38,942 bases of DNA from Burkholderiales bacterium (GTDB lineage Bacteria > Pseudomonadota > Gammaproteobacteria > Burkholderiales > SG8-41). Under the pieces are notes generated by a model that was given only the letters and a program-made list of their open reading frames with translations, was not told the DNA's origin and did no database searches. The position numbers and the translations under genes were made by a program. Every line of letters begins with the position of its first letter. The first letter of the stretch is position 1. This document shows, piece after piece, positions 33,901-34,004 of this stretch. The stretch covers positions 1 through 38,942 of the forward strand of contig CAKKQX010000368.1 of the NCBI GenBank assembly GCA_919902235.1. Reading direction: 5' to 3'.

Positions 33901-33917
33901 GCACAATTCATGCCAAT
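33901..33917 (-). promoter_or_regulatory. Sigma54 (-24/-12) promoter of the Rieske oxygenase operon
   Basis: Minus strand reads TTGGCATGAATTGTGCG: GG and GC separated by exactly 10 nt; about 60 nt upstream of ATG 33841. Confidence 0.72.
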
Positions 33918-33989
33918 TCCTTGATTTGACTCTTAAAGACTGAAAACAAACGTTTCTGCATGGAGGACGTAGAAGCGGCAGACGGTGAA

Positions 33990-34004
33990 GTTTCGAAATG
34001 AAAC
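33990..34004 (-). promoter_or_regulatory. Putative activator site GTTTC-N5-GAAAC upstream of the Rieske operon
   Basis: Minus strand GTTTCATTTCGAAAC; 13/15 identical to GTTTCATTAGGAAAC at 19462-19476. Confidence 0.65.

Follow-up and report, generated by a model that had tools for sequence, protein, structure and literature searches.

Methanesulfonate is a major product of the atmospheric oxidation of dimethylsulfide. In Methylosulfonomonas and Filomicrobium, the msmABCD and msmEFGH genes encode the α and β subunits, the Rieske ferredoxin and the reductase of methanesulfonate monooxygenase (MSAMO) and an ABC transporter, and they are accompanied by genes for PanB-like, GcvT-like, TauE and SoxCD proteins (PMC4433239). 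In the methanesulfonate-degrading Filomicrobium strain Y, a 20-kb segment carries the genes for TauE, GcvT, a PanB-like protein, SoxC, SoxD, MsmHGFE and MsmABCD (PMC4433239). The control of methanesulfonate breakdown has received little attention, and the literature searched contained nothing about a role of two-component systems or sigma54 in msm regulation. The window analyzed here, a stretch of 38,942 nucleotides from a Burkholderiales bacterium (contig CAKKQX010000368.1 of assembly GCA_919902235.1, which comprises 3.35 Mb in 390 contigs and is 86.6% complete), contains a similar system, for which two-component, sigma54-type control is predicted, whereas a LysR-type gene is annotated in Filomicrobium. 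The reading that we favor, and to which we assign a probability of about 0.87, is that two sites in this window are upstream activating sequences (UAS) paired with -24/-12 promoters, and that they belong to a single regulon of three target units under an NtrC-type regulator.

All four MSAMO components are encoded on the minus strand, in a Rieske oxygenase operon that runs from 33841 to 22933. It starts with the MsmA-like oxygenase α subunit (32633-33841), followed by an MsmB-like hydroxylase β subunit of the Ring_hydroxyl_B family (32098-32559), which had previously not been called, an MsmD-like NADH-dependent [2Fe-2S]/FAD reductase (31035-32180; the true start is probably located downstream of 32180) and an MsmC-like Rieske ferredoxin (30299-31147). 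Next come an SsuA/NMT1-type binding protein and ABC transporter resembling MsmEFGH (24987-30211) and, at the end of the operon, two folD paralogs (22933-24718, i.e., 22933-23814 and 23831-24718), one of which was scanned for domains; the second tandem copy is kept in several relatives. Convergent with this operon, on the plus strand, are the genes for a PanB-like hydroxymethyltransferase (19606-20481), a stand-alone cNMP-binding-like domain protein (20522-20986), a TauE/SafE sulfite-exporter family protein (21051-21815) and, at the end, a GcvT-like folate-binding protein (21809-22936). Judging from gene orientation, each operon would be transcribed as a single unit. Together with a soxC gene elsewhere in the genome (see below), the gene inventory equals that of the msm surroundings in Filomicrobium strain Y (PMC4433239). 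Unlike in the Methylosulfonomonas and Filomicrobium clusters, the ferredoxin and one permease carry cNMP-binding-like domains, so that three related domains of this type occur in one pathway: alone, at the C terminus of the ferredoxin and at the N terminus of the permease (27620-28963).

The PanB-like protein narrowly passes the cut-off of the NCBI panB model (215.9 vs. 207.55 bits). It is considered a paralog, since a separate panB gene with a higher score (340.9 bits) is present on contig C172; even so, it is likely to be annotated as a pantothenate biosynthesis gene. In its alignment to the structure 1m3u, the Asp, Asp, Lys, Glu, His and Glu residues familiar from PanB structures are kept. 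In 80 named loci found in a PanB-like profile search, the neighborhood repeatedly includes msm-like, transporter, soxCD and tauE genes. One locus with a similar cluster (L068, CAMDRT010000022.1) is titled Bordetella parapertussis; it is a metagenome assembly, and its title resembles an automatic best-match label.

Immediately upstream of the panB-like operon and its operator, the plus strand encodes a sensor histidine kinase with HisKA and HATPase_c domains (16956-17987) and an NtrC-type response regulator (17984-19447), the proposed activator. Like NtrC, AtoC and ZraR, the latter combines a REC domain, a sigma54-interaction AAA+ domain with Walker A and B motifs and a GAFTGA-type loop, here reading GAYTGA, with a putative DNA-binding region, and it has a sensor kinase partner. 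The C-terminal part, where a Fis-type helix-turn-helix would be expected, gave no Pfam helix-turn-helix match, but an LAxMLGIGRKALWxRR-like region is conserved in nearly all orthologs. The protein scores well below the cut-off of every curated family (399 of 714 bits for AtoC, 382 of 558.6 for NtrC), and its predicted targets, i.e., msm-like, panB-like and soxC genes, differ from those of NtrC, AtoC and ZraR.

The preliminary description of the window had reported a palindrome and a -24/-12 element upstream of each operon, and this arrangement is real and, as far as the letters can tell, was correctly interpreted. At the panB-like operon, the exact palindrome GTTTCATTAGGAAAC (19462-19476, plus strand) precedes the sigma54-type element TTGGCATACGGCTTGCT (19546-19562, plus strand), which has one mismatch to the consensus TGGCACNNNNNTTGCW and the correct GG-N10-GC spacing; the distance from the palindrome center to the -24 GG, given before as 79 bp, is 79-80 bp. 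At the Rieske operon, the exact palindrome GTTTCATTTCGAAAC (34004-33990, minus strand) and the element TTGGCATGAATTGTGCG (33917-33901, minus strand) were likewise found where they had been placed, with GG-N10-GC spacing and a center-to-GG distance of 82-83 bp. The latter element deviates from TGGCACNNNNNTTGCW at three positions and would be weak if judged in isolation; it is kept as TGGCATGAAT-N3-GC[GA] in three relatives (G046, G233 and G300). We know of no named motif equal to GTTTC-N5-GAAAC. The preliminary description had overlooked a degenerate second copy of the operator, which precedes the palindrome by 23 bp at each promoter: GATTCGTAACGAAAC, with one mismatch, at 19439-19453 (plus strand) and GTTTCCCGTGGCCAA at 34013-34027 (minus strand), with its GTTTC half-site at 34027-34023. 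In 23 of the 48 contexts that were aligned, a further GTTTC lies 16-24 bp upstream of the palindrome. Thus, a two-site operator appears to be common, but its spacing is variable, and the 23 bp does not represent a fixed rule. The IHF-like sequence AATCAAGGAATTG at 33926-33914, noted earlier with doubts about its role, does match the consensus, and the doubts were justified: the consensus is not conserved between operator and -24 in the relatives, with one other match, at a different position, among all promoters compared, and an IHF site was rejected on this ground.

A genome-wide scan was performed for a scattering of the motif without promoter association, which was not seen. GTTTC-N5-GAAAC occurs eight times in the genome, where base composition predicts approximately two occurrences, and the reversed control motif is absent. 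Four of the eight palindromes stand 78-99 bp upstream of a -24/-12 element, at three promoters. The third of these, located outside the window and overlooked before, is on contig C221, where two exact palindromes 21 bp apart lie 78 and 99 bp upstream of CGGCATAAGGCTTGCT. The downstream gene is soxC, encoding a sulfite dehydrogenase (TIGR04555, 607 bits vs. a cut-off of 420), and is followed by a gene for a c-type cytochrome. This double operator with its -24/-12 element was found at soxC in four genomes, the full arrangement being conserved only in the close relatives G233, G046 and G300, and in two of these it shares a contig with the msm-like cluster. The remaining four palindromes (contigs C59, C133, C299 and C360) lack a convincing -24/-12 element where one would be expected, and those on C59 and C299 are touched by a looser operator/promoter pattern. 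A loose pattern of a single half-site plus a -24/-12 element was useless in the genome as a whole (389 matches).

If one activator joined both operons, as had been proposed, the motif should travel with one regulator, and the distribution among relatives bears this out. The motif is present at panB in all 20 regulator-positive genomes (exact in 18, with one mismatch in G316 and G026) and in none of five regulator-negative close relatives (G081, G301, G306, G308 and G318). At the Rieske gene, it is exact in 19 of 19 regulator-positive genomes with upstream sequence (17 from the main comparison plus G092 and G317) vs. none of four regulator-negative ones, although in G303, G313 and G316 it is unusually far upstream, with 106-201 bp from the operator end to the GG. 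Most genomes compared are metagenome assemblies, in which absences may be gaps, and they are related, so that these counts are not independent; the Fisher values for co-occurrence, 2e-5 for panB and 1e-4 for the Rieske gene, are therefore inflated. On the panB-like tree, the presence of the regulator requires at least four changes on well-supported branches, and approximately four independent pairs are concordant for motif and regulator and none discordant, which is too few for formal significance. Two loci, L078 and L062, have the motif without a regulator on the contig. The regulator was predicted to be encoded elsewhere in these genomes, and orthologs were indeed found there (61% identity in G313 and 63% in G026). 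In three regulator-negative genomes, an MFS gene lies ~100-175 bp from panB, and the regulator and the panB operator may have been lost there in one deletion. The absence of the Rieske operator, which is at a separate place, is the cleaner evidence. In the genomes whose regulator bears the GAFTGA loop, a sigma54-type element is present downstream of the operator at 16 of 16 panB and 18 of 18 Rieske-copy promoters (scores of at least 19.5 out of 22.5, shuffle p ≤0.017, with weights that we set from the general consensus and shuffles that preserve base composition only). The rpoN gene was detected in 24 of 25 genomes, including the one that contains the window; none was seen in G313, the assembly of which is possibly incomplete. 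The most likely activator is the response regulator encoded at 17984-19447.

A second line of evidence, stronger than the co-occurrence, concerns the GAFTGA loop, which forms the contact with sigma54. In the regulators of G304, G309, G310 and G311 (loci L069, L074, L075 and L076), this loop has been lost, while Walker A and the C-terminal region are kept. These four regulators form one clade in the regulator tree (support 99/98), with the GAFTGA-bearing G305 as sister; in the weaker panB-like tree, the four are not recovered as a clade. Their palindromes are intact, but the -24/-12 element is absent at six of seven promoters, with a remnant at panB of G310. All four panB promoters instead show the sigma70-like sequence TTGCNN-N17-TATNNA; in three cases, the CTTGC of the old -12 box directly precedes the TAT, like the TGN of an extended -10 element. 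The sigma70-like elements at the Rieske genes (TTGCCG-N17-CAGAAT) are less persuasive than those at panB, since this sequence is also present in the sister G305, alongside an overlapping -24/-12 element. Loss of rpoN as the cause was rejected, as the gene is kept in all four genomes. Because the regulator changed on a single branch, these observations represent one event, seen in several genomes at two promoters, rather than seven independent ones. Among the orthologs inspected for the loop, a search extended to 121 G304 relatives at the threshold used added no GAFTGA-less one to those known. We think it rather probable that the whole regulon has changed sigma factor in these bacteria, in that the -24/-12 elements degenerated next to preserved operators and the old sequence gave rise to sigma70-type promoters. 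Such an end state has precedent in NtrC proteins without the GAFTGA loop that work at sigma70 promoters, i.e., NtrC of Rhodobacter capsulatus, NtrC of Caulobacter and VspR of V. cholerae (PMC10274813). With these proteins, the four orthologs share the loss of the L1 loop; their Walker motifs and putative DNA-binding region are kept. In contrast to these cases, sister genomes that retain the loop and sigma54-type promoters are available here, so that the changes in regulator and promoters can be compared, and the regulator in the window itself has the loop.

DNA binding, phosphorylation and the use of sigma54 are inferred from the motif, the promoters, their conservation and their co-occurrence with the regulator, and the following sequence of events is proposed. 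The histidine kinase would phosphorylate the response regulator, which would then bind GTTTC-N5-GAAAC, mostly at a distance of 75-97 bp from the -24 GG, as with the dyad sites of the NtrC family, in an operator that often consists of a strong site and a weaker one 16-24 bp upstream. Via DNA looping and an ATP-driven contact by its GAFTGA-type loop, it would activate the sigma54-RNA polymerase for open-complex formation. Thereby, the panB-like/tauE/gcvT operon, the convergent msm-like operon (Rieske α, β, reductase, ferredoxin, ABC transporter and two folD genes) and, elsewhere in the genome, soxC with the cytochrome c gene would be switched on. A small sulfonate would be imported and oxygenated, its C1 unit passed to tetrahydrofolate, and the sulfite oxidized or exported.

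Could the palindrome be read by a different regulator, for example a global one or one of the LysR or Fis type, with the response regulator merely co-localized? A LysR-type gene is present at the msm cluster of Filomicrobium (PMC4433239), and the proposed binding of the response regulator to the palindrome is deduced from co-occurrence. Still, this explanation appears improbable, as the motif follows the regulator even when the latter is encoded elsewhere in the genome, as in G313 and G026, is missing from relatives without it, and has lost its -24/-12 partner precisely in the clade where this regulator has lost the sigma54-contact loop. That the likeness of the two promoters would reflect chance or a recent duplication without shared regulation is harder still to believe. 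In a scan of the whole window, the -24/-12 consensus alone did match at chance level (25 matches vs. 25.5 expected), and the weight of the argument therefore rests on the pairing of operator and promoter and on its conservation. This pair, however, has been preserved at both genes in many genomes, in contrast to the sequence around it, and within the palindrome the five central bases vary freely across genomes, while the ten bases of the arms are kept.

The identity of the substrate is a separate matter. In the α subunit of the window and all its close relatives, the spacer in the CXH-Xn-CXXH motif comprises 17 residues, vs. the 26 that define MSAMO and are found in the proven methanesulfonate monooxygenases of Methylosulfonomonas and Filomicrobium. 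Homologs with 52-55% identity to the α subunit of the window have the 26-residue spacer, and in the α tree the two groups are on opposite sides of one branch (support 88/66, which is modest). Thus, the cluster appears to work like an msm cluster, yet it falls outside MSAMO on the defining spacer, and this spacer makes the substrate uncertain. It would be a small sulfonate, probably methanesulfonate or a near relative. There is a real, if lesser, chance that the regulon is as proposed and the substrate is not methanesulfonate but another C1 or short-chain sulfonate or a methylated sulfur compound. The spacer of 17 rather than 26 residues points in this direction, as do the statement of the authors of PMC4433239 that they knew of no data for methanesulfonate oxidation by n=17 proteins and the presence of a second short-spacer paralog in some genomes. 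On the other hand, the neighbors are those of the proven clusters (among them the PanB-like protein, SoxCD, TauE and an SsuA-like transporter), and short-spacer and 26-spacer proteins flank a single branch. The second paralogs, with 57-62% identity to the α subunit of the window, are encoded in G092 (contig C2), G305 (C43), G308 (C203), G313 (C111) and G316 (C63), and in the regulator-positive genomes among these an exact or one-mismatch motif is found upstream of them.

Taken together, the data seem to describe a new regulon, of which the change of sigma factor in relatives is the unexpected part. If that change is true, the GAFTGA-less clade is a directly testable record of a sigma54-to-sigma70 conversion and would offer a natural before-and-after comparison for studies on sigma-factor evolution. 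For the msm-like genes, a likely regulator and its operator can now be named, and soxC is tied to the pathway. The question raised in PMC4433239 of whether sulfonates are substrates of the short-spacer MsmA proteins is thereby addressed, as the predicted co-regulation of such a protein with a sulfite dehydrogenase and a transporter of the sulfonate type speaks in favor of this activity.
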